A DNA stretch of 38,584 bases from Planctomycetota bacterium (GTDB lineage Bacteria; Planctomycetota; Phycisphaerae; UBA1845; JANYLN01): the NCBI GenBank assembly GCA_025357795.1, contig JANYLN010000251.1:1-38584 (forward strand), in the 5' to 3' direction. Made by a program: the position numbers and the translations under genes. Positions 11,238 through 34,095 of the stretch are shown here, piece by piece; the first letter of the stretch is position 1, and each line of letters starts with the position of its first letter. The notes under the pieces are model-generated. The model made no database searches and was not told the DNA's origin. It was given only the letters and a program-made list of their open reading frames with translations.

Positions 11238-12179
<942 letters not shown>

Positions 12180-16707: not shown

Positions 16708-16797
16708 ATGCAGGATTTGCTCTATCTGACACTGACTGTTGCGTTTGCAGCAGCGTCCCTAACGTTGGTGAGGCTCCTGGATCGGTTGGCAAGGTGA
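16708..16797 (+). CDS. 29-aa single-TM small protein upstream of kdpF
   Basis: [35 protein letters not shown] at 16693-16698, 9 nt from the ATG; 5 nt before the kdpF ATG. Confidence 0.7.
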
Positions 16798-16802
16798 AGG
16801 TC

Positions 16803-16892
16803 ATGGACACAATCTACATGGTCTGCGGCGTGGTGGCAGCGGGACTGATGGTCTACCTGTTTGTCGCCCTGTTCAAACCGGAGATATTCTGA
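16803..16892 (+). CDS. kdpF: K+-transporting ATPase small subunit KdpF
   Basis: [29 protein letters not shown]; KdpF-like ending; stop overlaps the kdpA start (TGATG). Confidence 0.88.
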
Positions 16893-18637
16893 TGACCACC
16901 AATGGCATCATCCAGATAGCCTTGTACATGGCCGTCCTGCTGGCGCTGGTCAAGCCGCTGGGGGCGTACATGGCAAGGGTCTACCAAGGCCAACCTATCC
17001 GCCTGGACCGCGTGCTGGGGCCGCTGGAGCGGTTGATCTATCGGGGGTGCAGGGTCAAGCCCGAGCAGGAAATGGACTGGAAGGTCTACACCTTGTCAAT
17101 GCTGGCCTTCAGCATCCTGGGCATCGTGTCGCTCTATGCACTTCTGCGGGTGCAGGGAATGCTGCCGCTGAATCCGCAAGGCATGGGGGCTGTGCCGCCG
17201 GACCTGGCATTCAACACGGCTGTGAGCTTCACCACGAACACGAACTGGCAGAACTACTCCGGCGAGACGACGCTGAGCCACCTGACCCAGATGGTGGGTA
17301 TGACGGTGCACAACTTCGTTTCGGCGGCGACGGGGATGGCGATCCTGGTGGCGTTCATCCGCGGCCTGGTGCGGCACAATGCCCGGGCGATCGGCAACTT
17401 CTGGGTCGATCTGACCCGCAGCGTCCTGTACATCCTGCTGCCGTTGTCACTGATCCTGGCAATGGTGCTGGTGACGCAGGGGGTTGTCCAGACACTGGGG
17501 CCGTACAAGTCGGTGGCGCTACTGCAGCCGACGAAGGATGCCAACGGACAGATGGTTACGCAGCAGGTGCTGGCGATGGGGCCCGTGGCCTCGCAGGTGG
17601 CGATCAAGCATGTCGGCACCAACGGCGGGGGGTTCTTCAATGCCAACGCGGCGCATCCGTTCGAGAACCCCACCCCACTGACGGACTTGCTGCTGATCCT
17701 GGCGGAAACGCTGATCCCGGCGGCTTTGACGTATACCTTCGGCAAGATGGTTGGCGATACGCGGCAGGGTTGGACGATCCTGGCGGCGATGATGGTCGTA
17801 CTGGCAATCTTCGCCTTGGCGACCTATGCGGCGGAATCGGCCGGCAACCCTCGACTGGTGGCCCTGGGCGTGGATCAGGCCGGAAGTAACATCAACCCGG
17901 GTGGCAACATGGAGGGCAAGGAGGTTCGCTTTGGGGTCGCCAGGTCCTCGCTGTTCGCCGTGGGGACGACGGCCACATCGACGGGGGCGGTGGACTCGAT
18001 GCACGACTCGTACACGCCGTTGGGCGGACTGTCGATACTGATCCTGATGCAGTTCAGTGAGACGATCCTGGGCGGGGTGGGCTCGGGGCTGTACGGCATG
18101 CTGATCTTCGTGATCGTGGCGGTGTTCCTCGCGGGGCTGATGGTCGGCAGGACGCCGGAGTACCTGGGCAAGAAGATCGAAGCGTACGAGATGAAGATGG
18201 CGTCGCTGATCGTACTGCTGATGCCGCTGATCGTACTGGGCCTGACGGCAGTGGCGGTGGTGACCAAGGCGGGGGTAAGCAGCATCGCCAACCCGGGTGC
18301 CCACGGCTTCAGCGAGATCCTTTATGCCTATACCTCGCAAGGCAACAACAACGGCAGCGCGTTTGCCGGCCTGAATGGCAATACCACGTTCTACAACGTG
18401 ACGGGCGCGCTGGCGATGCTGGTGGGACGATTCTGGCTGGCGATTCCGGCGTTGGCGATCGCGGGCTCTCTGGCTGCCAAGAAGACCGTTCCGGCAGGGC
18501 CAGGAACGCTACCGACGAACACGCCGCTGTTCGCGGGCCTGCTGGTAGCGGTGGTGGTGATCGTGGGGGCGTTGACGTTCTTTCCGGCGCTGGCCCTGGG
18601 GCCGATCGTGGAACACCTGATGATGGGCTCGATGTGA
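16892..18637 (+). CDS. kdpA: K+-transporting ATPase subunit A
   Basis: 581 aa; [54 protein letters not shown], multi-TM. Confidence 0.97.
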
Positions 18638-18691
18638 GGTCCGATTAATGCCTCGCCGGCTGGGGGTGAAGCCGGCAAGGAGGCTCCAAAC

Positions 18692-19083
18692 ATGAGAACA
18701 TATGAAGAGAAGGCTCAGCAGACGCAGGAGCGCCGCATGTCAGGCTGCGACGTGCTGATGGAGTGCCTGCGGCAGTTGCACCCGGCTGTGCAGTTCGACC
18801 GGCAGTGTGGGTTCTTTCTCTACATCCTGTCGATTGGGATGGGGGGTGGCAGGGGTGGTCGAACTGCTCACCAGAGGCGCGGATGATGTGGTCCTGTTAC
18901 TCGTTTCATTGACGTTGTGGCTTGCTACTGGGGGACCCGCCGGTCCAGCCGCCGTCGCCTGCGGCGCAGGTCGCGGACGGCAGGTGGCCTGAGACGCATG
19001 GGCCAGGCTGGCGAGGCTCGCAGACCGCCGATGACGGCAGTGAGAAGGAGTGGCAGGTGTTGCTGGAGGCAAAGGAATCATGA
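18692..19083 (+). other. Interrupted/frameshifted gene candidate: small membrane protein between kdpA and kdpB
   Basis: AAGGAGG 8 nt before ATG 18692. Skipping one G in the G6 (18841-18846) and one in the G5 (18930-18934) gives a continuous 129-aa frame whose TGA overlaps the kdpB ATG. Uncorrected first frame is 18692-18886 (64 aa). Confidence 0.55.
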
Positions 19084-21146
19084 CGACTAAGGCCAGGCCG
19101 CTGTTCGATGCGGCCATTCTCAAGAGGGCGATCCTGGACGCGATGGTCAAGCTCGACCCGCGCTACATGGTCCGCAACCCGGTCATGTTCATGGTGGAGG
19201 TCGGGGCGGCCCTGACGCTGTACCTGTTCGTCGCGGCGCTGCTCGGCAAAGGGGAAGCACCGGCGGGCTTCACCCTGGCCATTTCCTTGTGGCTGTGGTT
19301 TACGGTGCTGTTCGCCAACTTTGCCGAGGCGATGGCGGAAGGACGCGGCAAGGCCCAGGCCGAGACGCTTCGCAAGACCCGGCGCGACGTCAATGCACGC
19401 CAACTGTCCGCACCGCGACGTGATGCCAAGTCGCAGATGGTGCCGGCCTCGCAGCTGCGCAAGGGGCACGTCATACTGGTCGAGGCTGGTGAGTTCATCC
19501 CGGGTGACGGCGAGGTCATCGAAGGCGTCGCCAGCGTGGATGAAAGCGCGATTACCGGCGAGAGTGCCCCGGTCATCCGCGAGTCCGGCGGAGACCGCTC
19601 GGCGGTCACCGGCGGCACGCGGGTCTTGTCGGATTGGCTGATCGTGCGGATCACCGCGGATCCGGGCGAGAGTTTCCTGGACCGCATGATCTCGATGGTC
19701 GAGGGGGCCAAACGGCAGAAGACGCCGAATGAGATCGCCTTGAGTATCCTGCTGGCGGCACTGACGATCATCTTCCTGATGGTCTGCGTTACGCTGCTGC
19801 CGTTCTCGATCTATAGCGCCAATGCCAGCGGGCTGGGAAGGCCGGTGTCGGTGACGGTGCTGGTGGCGCTGCTGGTGTGCCTGGCGCCGACGACGATTGG
19901 GGGATTACTCTCCGCCATTGGCATCGCGGGCATGGACCGGCTGATCCAGGCGAATGTGATCGCCATGTCCGGTCGGGCGGTGGAGGCGGCTGGCGACGTA
20001 GACGTGCTGCTGCTGGACAAGACGGGGACGATCACACTGGGCAACCGGCAGGCGACCGAGTTCATTCCTGCAGGGAATGTGGCTGTGGAGGCGTTGGCGG
20101 ATGCGGCACAACTGGCGTCGCTGGCTGATGAGACTCCCGAGGGTCGCAGCATCGTAATCCTGGCGAAGGAAAAGCACGGCCTGCGGGGCAGGGACGTGCG
20201 TGCCCTGGGCGCCACCTTCGTCCCGTTCACCGCCCAAACACGGATGAGCGGCGTGAACCTCGATCATCGCGAGATCCGCAAGGGAGCAGCAGAAGCGATT
20301 CAGTGCTACGTTCGTGCCAAGGGCGGAGAGTTTCCGGAATCGGTGCAACGGCAGGTCCAAGAGATATCGCGGCAGGGTGGCACGCCGCTGGTGGTCGCTG
20401 ACGGGGCGAAGGTTCTGGGCGTGATTCGGCTGAAGGACATCGTCAAGGGCGGGATCAAGGAGCGATTCGCGGAGCTGCGGACGATGGGCATCCGGACGGT
20501 CATGGTGACCGGAGACAACCCTCTCACGGCGGCCGCCATTGCCGCCGAGGCAGGCGTCGATGACTTTCTGGCGGAGGCCACGCCGGAGGCCAAGCTGGAA
20601 CTGATCCGCAAGTACCAGGCCGGAGGCAGACTGGTCGCCATGACGGGCGACGGCACGAACGACGCACCAGCGCTGGCGCAGGCGGACGTGGCGGTGGCCA
20701 TGAACACGGGCACACAGGCCGCCAAGGAGGCCGGCAACATGGTGGACCTGGATTCGAGCCCGACCAAGCTCATCCAGATCGTCGAGATCGGCAAGCAGTT
20801 GCTCATGACCCGCGGGGCCCTGACGACCTTCAGCATCTCCAACGACATCGCGAAGTACTTCGCGGTCATCCCGGCTGCCTTCGCGGCGACGTACCCGGCC
20901 CTGGGCGCCCTGAACATCATGCGGCTGGCGACGCCGGCCAGCGCGATCCTGTCGGCGGTGATCTTCAACGCGCTGATCATCATCGCGCTGATCCCGTTAG
21001 CCCTGCGGGGCGTGCGGTATCGGGCGGTGCCGGCAGCGCAGCTGTTGCGGCGGAATATACTTATCTATGGGCTTGGCGGGTTGATCGTGCCGTTCATCGG
21101 CATCAAGATCATCGACCTGCTGCTGGTGGCCATGCACCTGACGTAA
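19080..21146 (+). CDS. kdpB: K+-transporting ATPase subunit B
   Basis: P-type ATPase DKTGT ([19 protein letters not shown]), TGES loop, [24 protein letters not shown] at 19080. Confidence 0.97.
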
Positions 21147-25240: not shown

Positions 25241-28200
25241 TCAGTTGGCGGGAATGGACATTGCCAGGCTGGGCGACTCGGCCGCAGAAGGCCCGAAGAC
25301 CAGTTCAACGGCATGCTCGCGCTGATCATTCACGAGCTGCAGAGTCCCTTGCAACTGAAGCTGGTCGTCGAGCGTCAGCCGGGCCGGGCCGCAGTGTGCC
25401 GGGTCTTGCCTGAACACGATGTGGTAGAAGGTCTGGTAGTAGCGGTAATGCACCTTGAACTGCGACCACGAGGCCGGGACCCGCGGCCGGAAATGAAGCA
25501 CGTCCACCTGCCGGTCGATCCCAAGGATCACCTCGTGGAACAACCGGTAGAACCATGCCGCCGAGCCGGTGTACCAGGTCCACCCCCCACGGCCGGCGTG
25601 AGCGGGTTGGCTGTAGACATCGGCCGCCAGCACGTACGGCTCGACCTTGTAGCGTTCGACGGCCTGCGGGTCGAGCGCATGGTTGATCGGGTTGAGCATC
25701 GACACCAGGGACGATGCCTGGTCCTTGCGCCCCGCTAACGCGAAGGCCATCGCCGCCCACACCGCCGCGTGTGTGTACTGCCCCCCGTTTTCACGAACGC
25801 CCGGCAGGTATCCCTTGATGTAGCCTGGTTCGAGGGCGGACTGATCAAACGGCGGCGTGAAGAGCTGGATGATCTGAAGATCCGGGCGCACCAACTGGTC
25901 CCAGACGGCGTCCAGTGCCTGCCGGCGCCGCTCGGGCTCGCCGAGACCGCAGATCGTGGCCCAGCTCTGGGGAAGCGAGTCGATCCGGCATTCGGGGTTC
26001 TGGTGCGAGCCCAGCGGCTCGCCGCTGTCGAAGTAGGCGCGGCGGTACCACTGGCCATCCCACGCGTGCTCTTCTATGCTGGCAGCCAGCTGGCGGGCGG
26101 TCGTCAGGCATCGCTCGGCGAAGGGCGAATCGCCCTTGCGGTCCGCCAGGGCGGCAAACTGGGACAACACGTGGTGCAGGAAGAACGCCAGCCAGACGCT
26201 CTCCCCCTGGCCGAGGTGGCCGACGCGGTTCATCCCGTCGTTCCAGTCCCCGCTGCCCATCAGCGGCAGGCCGTGCGAGCCGAACTTCAGGCCATTGACG
26301 ATGGCCCGCGTGCAGTGCTCGTAGAGGGTGCCGGCCTGGTCGGAACGGCCGGGAATGTCGTAGTAGCTCTCCTCGCCGTCCTTGAGGGGGCGGCCCGTCA
26401 GGTAGGGGATCTTCTCATCCAGGACGCCGGTGTCGCCGGTGAAGGCCACGTAGCGACAGGTTGCATACGCCAGCCACAGGTAATCGTCCGAGCAACTTGT
26501 GCGGACGCCTCGCCCGTCCGGCGGGTGCCACCAGTGCTGCACGTCTCCCTTCGCAAACTGCCGTTGGGCACTACGCAGGAGATGCTGCCGGGTCAGGTCG
26601 GGCATCTCATGCAGCAGGGCCAGGCAGTCCTGGAGCTGATCGCGGAAGCCATAGGCGCCGCCGGATTGGTAGAAGCCGCTACGGCCCCACATGCGGCAAG
26701 ACAGCACCTGGTAGGGCAACCAGCCGTTCATCAGCACGTTGAGCGCCGGATCGGGCGTCTCGGCGTAGAGTACGCCCAGCTTGTCATTCCAGAACTGCCA
26801 GACCTCCTGCAGCGCGACGCGGGCGGCTCCCACGCCGCGGTATCGCTGGATCAGGGAGATGGCCTCGGCCGCGCTGCTGCCGGCGCCGAGGATGAAGACG
26901 ATTTCCCGCTGGGCCCCTTCGGCCAGGTCCACCCGTACCTGCATCGCGGCACAGGGGTCCATACCCGGGCCCAGCCGCCCGCTCATGCGTCGCAGGCGCA
27001 GCGCAGCCGGGTTGGCGGGGTCGCCATTGCGCCCCAGGAACTCCGCGCGGTCTCCGCTGACGCTACGAACGGTTTCGCTGCAGTCGAAGAAGGCCACCGT
27101 GTCGGGAGACTCGCTGTTGTAGCTGTTGCGGGCGAGGATCGCCCCGGTCAGCGGCTCGCGCTCGGTCAGGATGTGCATGGCCTGCCGAGACCGCAGGTCT
27201 CCCAGGACAAGGTCGGCCGATGCGAAGATGCTGATGGTCCTGCTGAGCCCACTGACGTTCCTGAGCTTGAGCGCCAGGAACTTCACCGGTGCGTCGGCCG
27301 CCACGTACGTCGTCAGCGTCGACTCCAGGCCATCCTCGGCATGCTCGAAGATGCTGTACCCGAAGCCGTGCCTGCTGACGTACGGTGTCCGGCCGGGACA
27401 AGGCGAGGGTGTCGGGCTGAAGAACCGCCCGCTCCGGTCGTCGCGGACATAAATCGCCTCGCCGCTGGGATCGCTCACCGGGTCGTTACTCCAGGGCGTG
27501 AGGCGGTAGAGCTGCGAGTTGCCGAACCAGGTGTAGGCGCTGCCGCTCTCGCTGACGACCGTGCCCAGTCGGGGGTTGGCAATGACGTTCACCCACGGCG
27601 CCGGGGTCTGACGACCGGGTGGAAGCTCAACGATATATTCGCGCCCGTCGGGCGTGAAGCCGCCTGTTCCATTGGAGAAGATCAGGTCGCGCTTGGGGGG
27701 GAACTGCCCGTTACCCTGCAATAGCGCGACGCGCGACGGCGTCAGCAGCAGGCCATTGGGCGGCACGGATGCCTCCCGCCAACGGTCCAACTGCTGTTCG
27801 AGCAGGCCGTCGGTATCCCGGATGACGATCCGGGCCACCGCCTGCAGCAGCACTCGGTCCTCTTCGGGGAAATGATCGACGTGCCGAACCAAGACCCCGC
27901 CTGGCTTATCTACCAGCTGGGCCTCCGTACCGGCGGAGATCAGCCCCATGATCTGGTCGTTGAGCGTCTGCCGGTAACCCGACACATCTTCGTTCCAGAT
28001 CACCAGGTCCGTCAACAGGCCCTTCATTCGCCAATAGGCGTGCGCCGTCAACAGGTCCCACACCAGCCGCAGATTGTCCGCGTCGCGGACGCGGAGCAGC
28101 ACGATGGGCAGGTCGCCTGAGATGGCGTAACCCCAGAGCCCCGATTGACCTTTGCGGTTGCGCCGCAGAATACTGCTGGCGGCACGGCAGGCACCATTGG

Positions 28201-31200
28201 CGTAGATCACGCCCGAAGCCAACTGTCCGAAGTGCTGCGCCTGTGCCTCGCTGGCCCCCAGGTGGCCCAGGATGGCCTGGCTGTGGGTGGCTGCCACCTC
28301 GAACACGCGATCCGCCATCCGGTGATCCTGGTACTTTGTAATCAGGGCCATTGCGGCCTGGCGCGTGGGCGCCGCCCCGATGATCAGATCCACCTGTGCG
28401 CTCTGGTCAACGGGCAGCTCGACCGTGCGCCGGACAGCCATGCATGGATCCAACACGGGCCCGGTCGTCCCGGAAAGCGGGCTCCAATCGTCCATTGCCG
28501 CGGGCTGACGGGTGCTGCGACCTCGACCGATGAAGCGTCCGCGGTCCGTCTCGAAACTACACGTGTTCGTCTCGCCCCCGGCCGCCTGCAATATGCAGAA
28601 CATCCACGGGGGCTGCTCCTGCGGCGAGCGAGGACGTCGCGTCGCCAGGATGGCACAGTGCTCCGGCAGGATCTCGGTCTGCACGAACAGGTTGCTGAAC
28701 ACCCGGTGCAGCTCGTCCGTCACGCCCGGCGCGAGCACGACCTCCGCGTACCCCGTGACCACGAGGCCGCGCGCCGCGGCGGAGCGATTGGTCAGCTTGA
28801 TCCGGCGGATTTCGAGATCATCCTCGGGCGACACCGCGATCTCGGTGTGCGTTTCCACGTGGTCGTCCTGACGCCGGAACTCGGCCCGCCCCTGCGTGAA
28901 AATCGCCTCGTAACGGCTGCCGGCCCGAAGCGTCGGTTGAAACGCGTTGGACCAGTACCGGCTGGTTTGGCGGTCGTGGATGTAACAGAATACCCCACAC
29001 GATTCGGACGTGGGATCCTCCCGCCAGCGTGTCAGCGCCAGGTCGTTCCATCGGCTGTACCCGCCACCGGCGGCCGAGACCATCACGTGGTAGCGCCCGT
29101 TGGATAGCAGGTGCACTTCGGGGACCGGGGGGTTCGGATTGGTGAACACGCGCATGGCGGGTTCGGTTACCTTGTCTTCCCGTCTGCGCGAGACCTGGGC
29201 CTCCCGCGCATACGGGTGCATCATCGCGATGGCCTTGGGAATGCGTTCCTGGAGCAGCAAGCTCGCGGCCCGCAGGTCCGGGTTGCCCAGGAACCGGCGC
29301 CGCATTCGCGGCCCGAGCACGGCATGCCCCATCGCCAGCAGGCTCATGCCCTGGTGATGGGCCATGAACGCCTGGATGATCGCGCGGGGCTGTCCGGCCG
29401 GCAGGCGCGCGGGCGTGAAGTCGATCGCTTCGTAGAAGCCGTAGGGTCCGATGCAGGCCTCTCGGGCCATGCGTCGCAAATTCTTGCAGGCACGCTGCGG
29501 ATCGACCAGCAGGGCCAAGGTGGACGCGTACGGCGCGACCACCACGTCATCGCTGAGTCCGCGCTGCAAGCCCAACCCCGGCACGCCGAACGCGTGGTAC
29601 TGGTAGTTGCCCTCAGCATCCGTCAGGTTGTAGCACGATTCCGAGATGCCCCAGGGCACGCCGCGCCGCCGGCCATAGTCGATCTGGCGGACCACGGCCG
29701 CCCGGCATGTCTGATCCAGCAAAGTGCTCTGGAAATCGGGCATCACCAGCAGCGGCATCAGGTACTCGAACATCGAGCCGCTCCAGCTCAGCAGCGTTTG
29801 CGTGCTACGCACCGTTGTCAGTCGCCTGCCCAGGGCGAACCAATGGTCAAAGGGCAGCTGTCCGGACGCGATGGCCACATAGCTCGCCAGCCGTGCCTCC
29901 GACGCCAGGAGGTCATAGAAGCCGTTGTCCAGCCGTCGATCCGCCACCCAATACCCAATGGACAGCAGCTTGCGCGACTTGTCGTAGAGGAAGGAGAAAT
30001 CGGCATCCGCCAGACCCGTGCACCGCTCTGCCAGGACCTCCAGCTGCCGAATGTGCGACCCGATGCGCTGCGCGCCTGCCAGGAACACGTCGCCCAGACG
30101 CTGCCTGCCGTTGGTAGCGGGCTTTGCGGCCAGCACCTCGGTGGCCTGTTGCGCCAGACGGCCGAGTTCCTCAAGGCTGGATACGTGATCCATGTCAGCC
30201 AGCAGGCGCTCGGCATCACTGTCGAGTGACTCTGTGCCGGCGGTGAGCCACGGCGCCATCACCGTCAGGTCGTCCAGGAAGCCTCGTGCCTGCCGGTCGA
30301 AGGCCTGTGCCCACCAGGCAGCCTCAGGATGTCGCTGACCATCGAATGATCCAGCGAGTCGTGTTGCCGCCGTGCACAACTCTCTCAACCAGGCTACCGT
30401 GGCGGCGAGCCCGTGGGCTTCGTGCTGCAGAAGTTGGTTCACCGACTCCATTGCGGAACGGTCGCCGTTTGCGGGGGGATCATCGGCGGTGCGCAGGCGC
30501 ACAGCGGGAGCCAGACTGACCTGCTCCGTCAGAAGACCGAACGTGTCGCGCAACCCATCCCTTGCTTCTGCCGGCAGCGCCGGAGCGCCACGCAGTTCGA
30601 GCAGCCCGCTCCGCAGTACGCGCAGGTGCCCGGCCAGATTGCCGCTGTCAACGCTGGAGACGTAGAGGGGCCGGAGGGGCTTGCGCGTGCAGGTATCGTA
30701 CCAGTTATAGAAGTGCCCGCGGTAACGCTCTAACTGTTCCATCGATTCGAGCGCCTGGGCCGTCCGGTCCAGCAACTGTCCGCCGCTCAGATACCCCAGG
30801 TCATGCGCCGCCAGATTGGATAGCAGCGCCAGGCCCATGTTCGTGGGGCTGGTGCGGTGGGCCACGCGGTGAGCGGGATGCTCCTGGAAGTTGTCGGGGG
30901 GGAGCCAGTTGTCCTGTGGCCCGACAAACTCTTCGAAGTAGCGCCACGTGAGCCTGGCGGTGCGGCGAAGAAAGCCCACGTCGTGGCTGTTCAGCGGCCG
31001 GACGCCAGACCGAAGCGGCAGGCTGACCCACCAGGCGACCAGCGGCGAAAGGAACCACAGCAGCAGAACCGCAGCGGCCGAGACGGACCCGAATGGCGCG
31101 CCAATGACGACCAGAAGCCCTGCTGCTCCGACAGCCAAGGCTGGACCCACCCACATCCGCTGCAAGATGTCCAGGAGGCCCTCCACGGCTCCACTCTCGG

Positions 31201-33997
31201 CCGCCGCCGCCGTCTGCCACTCGAGGAGGCGCCGCCGACTGTAGAGCATCCGCCACATCGTCCGCACGGCGGCATCCATGGCCACCATCGCCTCAAACGG
31301 CAGGAACGTCAGCCACAACGCCGTCCGGGCCAGGCGACGGGCGGTGGATTGGCCAACGGCAGTCACATGCACCCACAGCGGAAGCCGGGCCGGGCGCTGC
31401 ATCAACGCGGCCAGGCTTGGTAGCAACTCCGGTACGAACAACAATCCCGCGACCCACAGGGTCCATGTCAGGGGAGCCGGCAGGACAACCCACCCCAGCA
31501 CGAGCAGCATCGTATAGGCGGGTGTCACATAGGCGCGGCGCAGGTTGTCGAAGATCTTCCACCGCCCCAGCGCCGCGATCCATGGACGGCCACGCCGCCC
31601 CGCGGCATCCGAGATCGTCGCGCCCAACCACGGGGCGATCTGCCAGTCGCCGCGCATCCAGCGGTGACGGCGGCTGACATCAGCCAGGTACCGCGAGGGG
31701 GAGTCCTCCAGCAGTTCCACGTCGTTGCACTGGCCGGAACGCGCGTAGCACGATTCCAGGAGATCGTGGCTGAGCACGGTATTGTCGGGAAATCGCCCGT
31801 CCAGCAGCCGGCGAAAAGCCCACACGTCATAGATGCCCTTGCCAATGTAGGACGCCTCGCCGAACAGGTCCTGGTACAGGTCCGACACGACGCGCGTGTA
31901 AGGATCGAGGCCCACCTCGCCCGCCAGCAGACGGGAATAGCGGCTCCGCTGCGCGCTGCGGAGCGAGATGCCGATGCGCGGCTGGAGGATTGCATAACCA
32001 CGGACCAGGCGCCGGCCGCAGGTATCCATCATCGGGCGGTTCAGCGGGTGGGCGGCGGCCCCCACCAGTCTCCAGCCGGCCCCCCACGGCAGGTCCGTGT
32101 CGGTGTCCAGCGTAATGACGTAACGGATCGATGGCAACTCCGATGTGTCGCCGACGATCCTGCTGAAGCGATCGCGTCCCTCCCCGCGAAGCAGTTCGTT
32201 GAAATCCTCCAGCTTGCCGCGTTTGCGCTCGCGGCCCATCCAGCACCCCTCCTGCGAGTTGAAGAGCCGGGGCCGGTGGAACAGGAAGAATCGTCCGTGC
32301 GTACCGTTGCCGTACTTGCCGTTCAGTTCTTCGACCCCGGCCGCTGCCAACCGGAGCAGGTTGTCATCCCCCTCGACGTGCTGCCTGTCGGCGTCCCCGA
32401 AATCCGTCAGCAATGCGAACCACAGGTTCGGATCGCGGTTGGCCAGGTAGCGAAGTTCCAGGGCCTCTACAATCTCCGTGATTCGCCGCCGCCCCGTCAA
32501 GAGCGTCGGTACGACGACCATCGTGCGGCACTGGTCGGGGATGCCATGCTCAAAGTCCATCCGGGGCAGCGCCCGCGGCGTGCGGACGGTGGAGGCGTAC
32601 CAATTGACAATCGCCACCGCGCACTGCGATGCCGCCAGCGCAGCGCATAGCGCCAGGATCGGCCTCGCCCATCCTGGGCCCTGCATGGCTTGCATAACCA
32701 GGGGAGCGGCGACGGCCGCTGTCAACAGCGAGACAGGACCGAGGTAGGTGAGAAGCTTCAGTCCCCGCAGCGGCCGACGGGGCGAGAGCCGCGCAACAGG
32801 GTGTCCGCGCAACGCCCGCTCCAGATGCCGCTTGCCTTCATCGACGAGCAGGTATCCCACGTGGGCCGCGACATCTTCGCTCTGCGCGACGTATTGCCGC
32901 GCGGCCAGCGACACCGCCGTCCGGGCCACTTCCTCTTCGTCGATGCCCCGCCGCCGGGCCAGGGCCTCAACCACGTGTCGGTACTCGTCGCGCGTACTGA
33001 AATCCATCTGACCATACACGCCCGCCGGCTCGGCTCGCAGGATCTTCTCCGTCTGGCTATGCGTCTCGACAAACTCGTGCCACTCGGTGGCGTTGACAAA
33101 GCGCAGGCTGGCGATGCTGTTGGCCATCGATGCCTGGTCCGCCGCCTGGCTCTGGCTCTCGGCGCGAACGACTTCCTCGATCGTCTGCCCTTGCTCGGCC
33201 AGGCGGTGTTCCAGCCACGCCAGGACGAAAGCGGTCGTCGGCCCGTGCCCTTGAAGAGCCTGGGTGAACTGTGCGACGAACGCCGTCGACAGGGGGGGGT
33301 TTTCGCGCACCATGTCCGCCAGCACCACAATGACGGCGCTTTCATGCCTCTGGCCGGATTCCTTGATCCGCTTCGCCCACTCCAGGGCGCGGTCTCGATG
33401 TGCCCGCTGCCAGCTGACGCTCACGGCGACGCGGCGCAGGTTCTCGATCAGGGCCAGGCGCAGCATGATGGCAACCGACCACAACTCCCCCAGGATCAGA
33501 TGCGTGACGGACTGGTAAGCGGCGATATAGCGAGCCAGGGCCTCACCATCCACGCGGCCGTCCACGTGCCGGATGAGTTGCAGGATGATGTCGTAGATGC
33601 GGGGAAGACCCGTCGGGTCGCTGCCCTTGAGCCGGGGCAACTGACGGCTGTATCCCGGCGGAAAATGCCTCCGGGCCAGATGAACCTGCTCCTCAACGAG
33701 GTAGTGATTGTCCAGGAGCCACTCGGCGGCCGGTGTGAGCCGCCGTCCGGCGGCGTGCGCCTCGGACATCAGGTCGTGGCAGCGGGCGATTACTCGCTCC
33801 GATTCGGCCAGCCGCTTCAGAAGGTGATCCCTGCCACGATGGCGACCCGTCTCATGAGCCGCTGCCAGACTTTTGGCATGTACCTCCAACTGCTCGATCG
33901 TGAACATCGCCCCGCGCAGTGGCGGTTCGGTTGCGCTGGCCGGGTACAAGTTGTCCGCCCAGCGGTTGGTGTCCGCCCGCCTGAACGGACTTCGCAT
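25241..33997 (-). CDS. Cyclic beta-1,2-glucan synthase-like protein (GT84 / glucoamylase-like / GH94)
   Basis: ~2918 aa from ATG 33997 (GGAG upstream). GT: YVITLDTDTDLPWGAGWRLVGAAAHPLNRP. Glucoamylase-like: GISESCYN...AFMAHHQGMSLLAMG. GH94: GSGDWNDGMNRVGHLGQGESVWLAFFLHHVL. Multi-TM segments between. Confidence 0.9.
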   Translation of the reverse strand: MRSPFRRADTNRWADNLYPASATEPPLRGAMFTIEQLEVHAKSLAAAHETGRHRGRDHLLKRLAESERVIARCHDLMSEAHAAGRRLTPAAEWLLDNHYLVEEQVHLARRHFPPGYSRQLPRLKGSDPTGLPRIYDIILQLIRHVDGRVDGEALARYIAAYQSVTHLILGELWSVAIMLRLALIENLRRVAVSVSWQRAHRDRALEWAKRIKESGQRHESAVIVVLADMVRENPPLSTAFVAQFTQALQGHGPTTAFVLAWLEHRLAEQGQTIEEVVRAESQSQAADQASMANSIASLRFVNATEWHEFVETHSQTEKILRAEPAGVYGQMDFSTRDEYRHVVEALARRRGIDEEEVARTAVSLAARQYVAQSEDVAAHVGYLLVDEGKRHLERALRGHPVARLSPRRPLRGLKLLTYLGPVSLLTAAVAAPLVMQAMQGPGWARPILALCAALAASQCAVAIVNWYASTVRTPRALPRMDFEHGIPDQCRTMVVVPTLLTGRRRITEIVEALELRYLANRDPNLWFALLTDFGDADRQHVEGDDNLLRLAAAGVEELNGKYGNGTHGRFFLFHRPRLFNSQEGCWMGRERKRGKLEDFNELLRGEGRDRFSRIVGDTSELPSIRYVITLDTDTDLPWGAGWRLVGAAAHPLNRPMMDTCGRRLVRGYAILQPRIGISLRSAQRSRYSRLLAGEVGLDPYTRVVSDLYQDLFGEASYIGKGIYDVWAFRRLLDGRFPDNTVLSHDLLESCYARSGQCNDVELLEDSPSRYLADVSRRHRWMRGDWQIAPWLGATISDAAGRRGRPWIAALGRWKIFDNLRRAYVTPAYTMLLVLGWVVLPAPLTWTLWVAGLLFVPELLPSLAALMQRPARLPLWVHVTAVGQSTARRLARTALWLTFLPFEAMVAMDAAVRTMWRMLYSRRRLLEWQTAAAAESGAVEGLLDILQRMWVGPALAVGAAGLLVVIGAPFGSVSAAAVLLLWFLSPLVAWWVSLPLRSGVRPLNSHDVGFLRRTARLTWRYFEEFVGPQDNWLPPDNFQEHPAHRVAHRTSPTNMGLALLSNLAAHDLGYLSGGQLLDRTAQALESMEQLERYRGHFYNWYDTCTRKPLRPLYVSSVDSGNLAGHLRVLRSGLLELRGAPALPAEARDGLRDTFGLLTEQVSLAPAVRLRTADDPPANGDRSAMESVNQLLQHEAHGLAATVAWLRELCTAATRLAGSFDGQRHPEAAWWAQAFDRQARGFLDDLTVMAPWLTAGTESLDSDAERLLADMDHVSSLEELGRLAQQATEVLAAKPATNGRQRLGDVFLAGAQRIGSHIRQLEVLAERCTGLADADFSFLYDKSRKLLSIGYWVADRRLDNGFYDLLASEARLASYVAIASGQLPFDHWFALGRRLTTVRSTQTLLSWSGSMFEYLMPLLVMPDFQSTLLDQTCRAAVVRQIDYGRRRGVPWGISESCYNLTDAEGNYQYHAFGVPGLGLQRGLSDDVVVAPYASTLALLVDPQRACKNLRRMAREACIGPYGFYEAIDFTPARLPAGQPRAIIQAFMAHHQGMSLLAMGHAVLGPRMRRRFLGNPDLRAASLLLQERIPKAIAMMHPYAREAQVSRRREDKVTEPAMRVFTNPNPPVPEVHLLSNGRYHVMVSAAGGGYSRWNDLALTRWREDPTSESCGVFCYIHDRQTSRYWSNAFQPTLRAGSRYEAIFTQGRAEFRRQDDHVETHTEIAVSPEDDLEIRRIKLTNRSAAARGLVVTGYAEVVLAPGVTDELHRVFSNLFVQTEILPEHCAILATRRPRSPQEQPPWMFCILQAAGGETNTCSFETDRGRFIGRGRSTRQPAAMDDWSPLSGTTGPVLDPCMAVRRTVELPVDQSAQVDLIIGAAPTRQAAMALITKYQDHRMADRVFEVAATHSQAILGHLGASEAQAQHFGQLASGVIYANGACRAASSILRRNRKGQSGLWGYAISGDLPIVLLRVRDADNLRLVWDLLTAHAYWRMKGLLTDLVIWNEDVSGYRQTLNDQIMGLISAGTEAQLVDKPGGVLVRHVDHFPEEDRVLLQAVARIVIRDTDGLLEQQLDRWREASVPPNGLLLTPSRVALLQGNGQFPPKRDLIFSNGTGGFTPDGREYIVELPPGRQTPAPWVNVIANPRLGTVVSESGSAYTWFGNSQLYRLTPWSNDPVSDPSGEAIYVRDDRSGRFFSPTPSPCPGRTPYVSRHGFGYSIFEHAEDGLESTLTTYVAADAPVKFLALKLRNVSGLSRTISIFASADLVLGDLRSRQAMHILTEREPLTGAILARNSYNSESPDTVAFFDCSETVRSVSGDRAEFLGRNGDPANPAALRLRRMSGRLGPGMDPCAAMQVRVDLAEGAQREIVFILGAGSSAAEAISLIQRYRGVGAARVALQEVWQFWNDKLGVLYAETPDPALNVLMNGWLPYQVLSCRMWGRSGFYQSGGAYGFRDQLQDCLALLHEMPDLTRQHLLRSAQRQFAKGDVQHWWHPPDGRGVRTSCSDDYLWLAYATCRYVAFTGDTGVLDEKIPYLTGRPLKDGEESYYDIPGRSDQAGTLYEHCTRAIVNGLKFGSHGLPLMGSGDWNDGMNRVGHLGQGESVWLAFFLHHVLSQFAALADRKGDSPFAERCLTTARQLAASIEEHAWDGQWYRRAYFDSGEPLGSHQNPECRIDSLPQSWATICGLGEPERRRQALDAVWDQLVRPDLQIIQLFTPPFDQSALEPGYIKGYLPGVRENGGQYTHAAVWAAMAFALAGRKDQASSLVSMLNPINHALDPQAVERYKVEPYVLAADVYSQPAHAGRGGWTWYTGSAAWFYRLFHEVILGIDRQVDVLHFRPRVPASWSQFKVHYRYYQTFYHIVFRQDPAHCGPARLTLDDQLQLQGTLQLVNDQREHAVELVFGPSAAESPSLAMSIPAN

Positions 33998-34095
33998 CCT
34001 GACAGCTCCAATGATTGCCCTATGAATTCCACGTCTCAGCGCACACCGCCTTGCGATACCGGAAGGCCCGCTCACGGATCAGATGTCCGTTCGAT

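Follow-up and report, generated by a model that had tools for sequence, protein, structure and literature searches.

The window analysed here is a 38,584-nucleotide stretch of a Planctomycetota bacterium (contig JANYLN010000251.1 of assembly GCA_025357795.1), and it carries a complete kdp operon consisting of kdpF, kdpA, kdpB, kdpC, kdpD and kdpE, of which kdpC, kdpD and kdpE were named from their own sequence and position. The kdpA stop codon ends at 18637 and the kdpB ATG lies at 19080, leaving a spacer of 442 nt. A sequence-only reading had drawn attention to this distance and to an AAGGAGG motif 8 nt ahead of an ATG at 18692, and had noted that dropping one G from each of two G-runs (G6, 18841-18846; G5, 18930-18934) joins three frames into a composite protein of 129 aa. 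Both observations proved exact on re-reading, as did the length of the span (18692-19083, 392 nt, 3n+2) and the overlap of the composite TGA with the kdpB ATG (ATGA). Hydropathy analysis likewise bore out two hydrophobic segments, at about residues 38-61 and 62-84. The coordinates of these features are given in Table 1.

Table 1. Features of the kdpF-kdpB region, in window coordinates (codon scores are per codon).
Feature	Position	Strand	Basis
kdpF, the normal kdpF of the operon	16804-16892	+	matches KdpF profile (PF09604)
kdpA, intact	16892-18637	+	Pfam PF03814, E 3.8e-244; TIGR00680
Predicted hairpin GCCUC-GCCGGCU...AGCCGGC-AAG-GAGGC, pairing part of the AAGGAGG	18650-18683	+	fold of 18630-18710, -25.8 kcal/mol, z -1.6 (weak)
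Shine-Dalgarno-like AAGGAGG, 8 nt before ATG 18692	18677-18683	+	sequence
Composite segment 1, 51 codons: opens the composite and the first hydrophobic segment	18692-18844	+	0.16 vs -0.63/-0.54 in the other + frames
Composite segment 2, 29 codons: completes the first hydrophobic segment and holds most of the second	18846-18932	+	best + frame but weak, -0.15 vs -0.51/-0.77
Composite segment 3, 49 codons and TGA: hydrophilic tail, stop overlapping kdpB ATG (ATGA)	18934-19083	+	0.02 vs -0.32/-0.43
kdpB, intact	19080-21146	+	TIGR01497, 1102 bits

The composite thus occupies an operonic position with translation signals at both ends, and its AAGGAGG is the best Shine-Dalgarno sequence of the whole gap. 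As the DNA is written, the frame of segment 1 runs from ATG 18692 to a TGA at 18884-18886, giving a 64-aa open reading frame, and kdpB has a Shine-Dalgarno-like GGAGG of its own 10 nt upstream of its ATG. The spacer sequence is present in a single copy in its own draft genome, a 3.5-Mb assembly in 338 contigs (87.9% complete). An Rfam search of the kdpA-kdpB gap returned no RNA element, and with a whole-gap fold of z -1.8 an RNA element was rejected as an account of the spacer.

We then searched for relatives of the composite. No family match was found in the Pfam, NCBIfam and PHROGs profile libraries, and no homolog in the PDB, in plasmids or phages, in 84,980 species genomes scanned by pattern, or in six-frame searches of 61 relatives and of genomes from the order (114), the class (397) and the phylum (392). 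Apart from the window itself, the homology searches returned only scattered weak pieces (E 1e-4 to 1e-2), and none of the weak-match loci that were fetched contains kdpA or kdpB. The comparison with other kdpA-kdpB gaps proposed in the sequence-only reading was carried out on 131 further loci, not all of them independent owing to an overlap between two collections, and none of these gaps holds the composite sequence. The gap is usually short in these loci (median 49 nt), with 10 of the 131 reaching at least 400 nt; two of these contain no long open reading frame (L039, 530 nt; L151, 426 nt), the L097 gap carries a 3.4-kb insertion, and the others hold the coding sequences of L180, L144, L145, L007, L008, L082 and L087 described below. 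Because no relatives appear in the genomes, the libraries or the 131 other gaps, the insert is specific to its source lineage, and none of the other genomes searched belongs to that lineage's family. The proposal that it encodes a kdp accessory subunit or regulator is not supported, no homolog having turned up in the 131 loci or in any collection searched.

Several candidate resemblances were rejected. Neither the composite nor any of its three pieces matched the KdpF profile (PF09604). Origin as a duplicated fragment of KdpA, KdpB, KdpC or KdpD was discarded, since the best alignment, to the KdpB N-terminus, was equalled by 50 of 500 shuffles; by eye, the hydrophobic pattern of the KdpB N-terminus resembles that of the composite. 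A match in L050 that lies upstream of kdpA (49% over 47 aa, E 0.28) belongs to another peptide that precedes kdpF and is a chance likeness of hydrophobic stretches. The gap of L180 (584 nt) encodes an uninterrupted small membrane protein of about 127 aa without a Pfam match, and it was set aside as a relative because 133 of 500 shuffles aligned equally well.

To judge whether the composite carries a coding signal, its codon usage was scored with a table built from the genes of the window. Of dinucleotide-shuffled gaps, 83% also permit a composite from a start to kdpB with at most two frame changes; the mere existence of a two-shift composite is therefore no evidence of a gene. The codon-usage score is more discriminating: it was matched by 2 of 5,000 shuffles when the start was freely chosen (p ~4e-4), and by 0 of 2,000 for a two-frame-change reading of the fixed span. 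A free search placed the frame changes at 18842, in the G6 run, and at 18918, 12 nt before the G5 run. The composite frame scored highest among the three plus-strand frames in each of the three segments, segment 2 being the weakest, and GC content by codon position was.67/.46/.76 in the composite vs.68/.46/.83 in the neighbouring genes. By the same statistic the gap reached z 4.0 on the plus strand vs 0.9 on the minus strand, and a minus-strand gene (136-aa open reading frame, 18740-19150) was rejected for want of a coding signal on that strand.

Comparison with other sequences places this signal in an intermediate range. Two of 39 other uncalled spacers of the genome reach z 4.0, and both overlap long uninterrupted open reading frames (420 and 661 aa) that the caller had missed, with the high score falling on the opposite strand in the case of the 661-aa frame. 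Pieces of real genes bearing two artificial insertions scored a mean z of 7.4 and a minimum of 5.1, so that the kdp gap lies below all of them. Synonymous codon choice alone was not host-like (-0.05 per codon in the composite vs +0.09 to +0.19 in eight genes), and a generic codon HMM left the composite uncalled, calling the third segment alone. The coding signal is thus statistically real but intermediate between spacers and genes, which is what a gene that is short, atypical or in decay would be expected to give.

The explanation we favour, at a confidence somewhat short of even, is that the spacer holds the remains of a small lineage-specific gene for a two-helix membrane-hairpin protein of about 129 aa, which was once translated within the kdp operon and is now broken by two single-base shifts. 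We infer the former translation and the membrane location, and that the breaks arose through lost selection rather than through sequencing; both ends of the composite look native to the operon. In such a once-intact gene, translation would have begun at ATG 18692 with ribosomes coming off kdpA, and those terminating on kdpA may have opened the predicted hairpin directly behind its stop codon, freeing the partly paired Shine-Dalgarno sequence. Reading would originally have run on to the ATGA shared with kdpB and stopped there. In the sequence as it stands, translation from ATG 18692 would halt at 18886 to give a truncated product of 64 aa, and kdpB would use its own GGAGG; because of this separate ribosome-binding site, kdpB would not be lost. 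A role in potassium transport gains no support from this analysis. The description of a recently broken gene in the sequence-only reading thus stands in part: its frame-switching coding trace is moderately supported statistically, but no intact relative was found.

The main rival is a plain spacer: an ordinary expanded kdpA-kdpB interval, non-coding or long decayed, whose G-rich DNA happens to allow a path through three frames that reads as the composite. This is a serious possibility, though it ranks below a decaying gene. It accords with the ease with which shuffled gaps yield a two-change composite, with the searches that found a homolog nowhere, with the lack of synonymous codon bias, and with the long spacers of L039 and L151. 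It does not readily account for a codon score that shuffles with a free start so seldom match, for switch points that a blind search recovers near the G-runs, or for a span that opens with a Shine-Dalgarno sequence and ATG and closes on ATGA.

Sequencing or assembly indels in a draft whose source organism carries the gene intact are the third explanation, and a rather unlikely one. We surveyed ~202-203 kb of other contigs of the same draft genome for frame breaks with an HMM, which flagged six internal frame changes in 202 kb. Two of the six look like ordinary gene overlaps, and four look like single-base breaks. These lie in a second groEL, in htrA, in a ParA-like ATPase called on the basis of its translation, and in a sulfatase-like gene that matched no Pfam family. 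The groEL is the second of a tandem pair (L125:8899-10475, minus strand, contig C290) and is cut near L125:9691; it aligns to family positions 1-260 and then 259-525, with both halves fully conserved, and its tandem partner and a third copy elsewhere are intact. The breaks in the htrA protease, ParA-like ATPase and sulfatase-like genes lie near 11809 and 19304 of L114 and 8879 of L118. Even a conserved gene such as groEL can therefore be broken by a single-base shift in a draft genome, whether through recent mutation or through assembly error.

Such clean breaks in conserved genes of an incomplete draft give the indel explanation its footing, but their frequency and placement do not favour it. 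About four breaks per 203 kb predict ~0.008 in 392 nt, and by a Poisson estimate two breaks within that length should occur in about 3 of 100,000 cases. Moreover, the breaks elsewhere fall outside G/C runs of at least 5; a C5 run lies about 35 nt from one flagged site, which is one of the two gene overlaps. All 37 G/C runs of at least 5 in 18.4 kb of intact neighbouring genes are in frame, and the 351 such runs in 165 kb of called coding DNA are almost entirely unflagged. The composite's codon signal is also below that of real genes. Homopolymer sequencing errors, which the sequence-only reading had offered as one cause, are thus possible but not the natural explanation. Locally low coverage could be a source of clustered errors; that the breaks cluster in one orphan amid intact neighbours is better explained by relaxed selection than by uniform error.

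A further alternative holds that the 64-aa open reading frame at 18692-18886, with its Shine-Dalgarno sequence, is the sole real small gene, as written, and that the remainder is spacer. The frame does have the best Shine-Dalgarno sequence of the gap and includes the segment with the best codon score, but its tail beyond the G6 run lies in the worst plus-strand frame (segment 2, offset 2, -0.77 per codon) and it has no homolog, and we regard this reading as improbable.

Still less probable is a functional kdp subunit or regulator made at the G-runs through two programmed +1 shifts or through slippage of the transcript. In its favour, the shifts agree in sign, the G-runs can accommodate both of them, and the ends of the composite are operon-like; however, G-runs this short (5-6 nt) are common in the neighbouring genes without shifting (37 runs), the arrangement is not conserved in the 131 other kdp loci, and the yield would be limited by two rare events whose frequencies multiply. 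A conserved shift site with a two-frame product was not found, the composite having no homolog in the genomes searched, and the suggestion of +1 frameshifting gained no supporting evidence. Its most specific form, a lineage-specific two-helix KdpFABC subunit or regulator read from three frames by two +1 shifts at the G-runs and coupled to kdpB translation, we consider barely credible.

The putative decaying orphan may be set beside known systems. KdpF and the other small one- or two-helix KdpFABC subunits (PF09604) are likewise small hydrophobic proteins inside the kdp operon. The composite does not resemble KdpF in sequence, its score falling below the shuffle mean, and it differs also in its 129 aa, its two hydrophobic segments followed by a long hydrophilic tail, and its place between kdpA and kdpB. 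Other kdpA-kdpB insertions also place extra coding sequence in this spacer, but as uninterrupted open reading frames whose sequence is unrelated to the composite. In the frame-broken groEL, htrA and ParA-like genes the coding signal likewise resumes in another frame after a single-base break; in contrast to the composite, these belong to known families with intact relatives and carry one break each, outside G-runs. Were the gene intact in life, its product would be a membrane protein not described before, confined to this lineage and co-translated with a potassium pump; if broken, the orphan adds one more instance of the gain and loss of genes within an operon.

The kdpA-kdpB gap holds other genes elsewhere. 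In L007, L008, L082 and L087 it contains kdpC, the order being kdpA-kdpC-kdpB and not kdpA-kdpB-kdpC. In two genomes of the same class (L144 and L145, gaps of ~880 nt) it encodes a signal-peptide, beta-barrel-like protein; the one that was tested had no match in Pfam.

Two observations concern the surroundings of the operon. Just upstream of kdpF, at 16709-16798 on the plus strand, lies an open reading frame for a 29-aa one-helix peptide without a Pfam or NCBIfam family match. Similar peptides, with a pattern of roughly M-D-x-x-Y-L ... F-F ... C-x-x-L, were seen by eye in roughly half of a set of 69 kdp loci spanning several phyla, ~175-215 nt ahead of the kdpA start, and the peptide looks like an uncurated kdp-linked microprotein. 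Beside the operon, at 25241-34075 on the minus strand, is an uninterrupted open reading frame of 2,944 aa which, judged from its sequence, appears to resemble an NdvB-type cyclic beta-glucan synthase.
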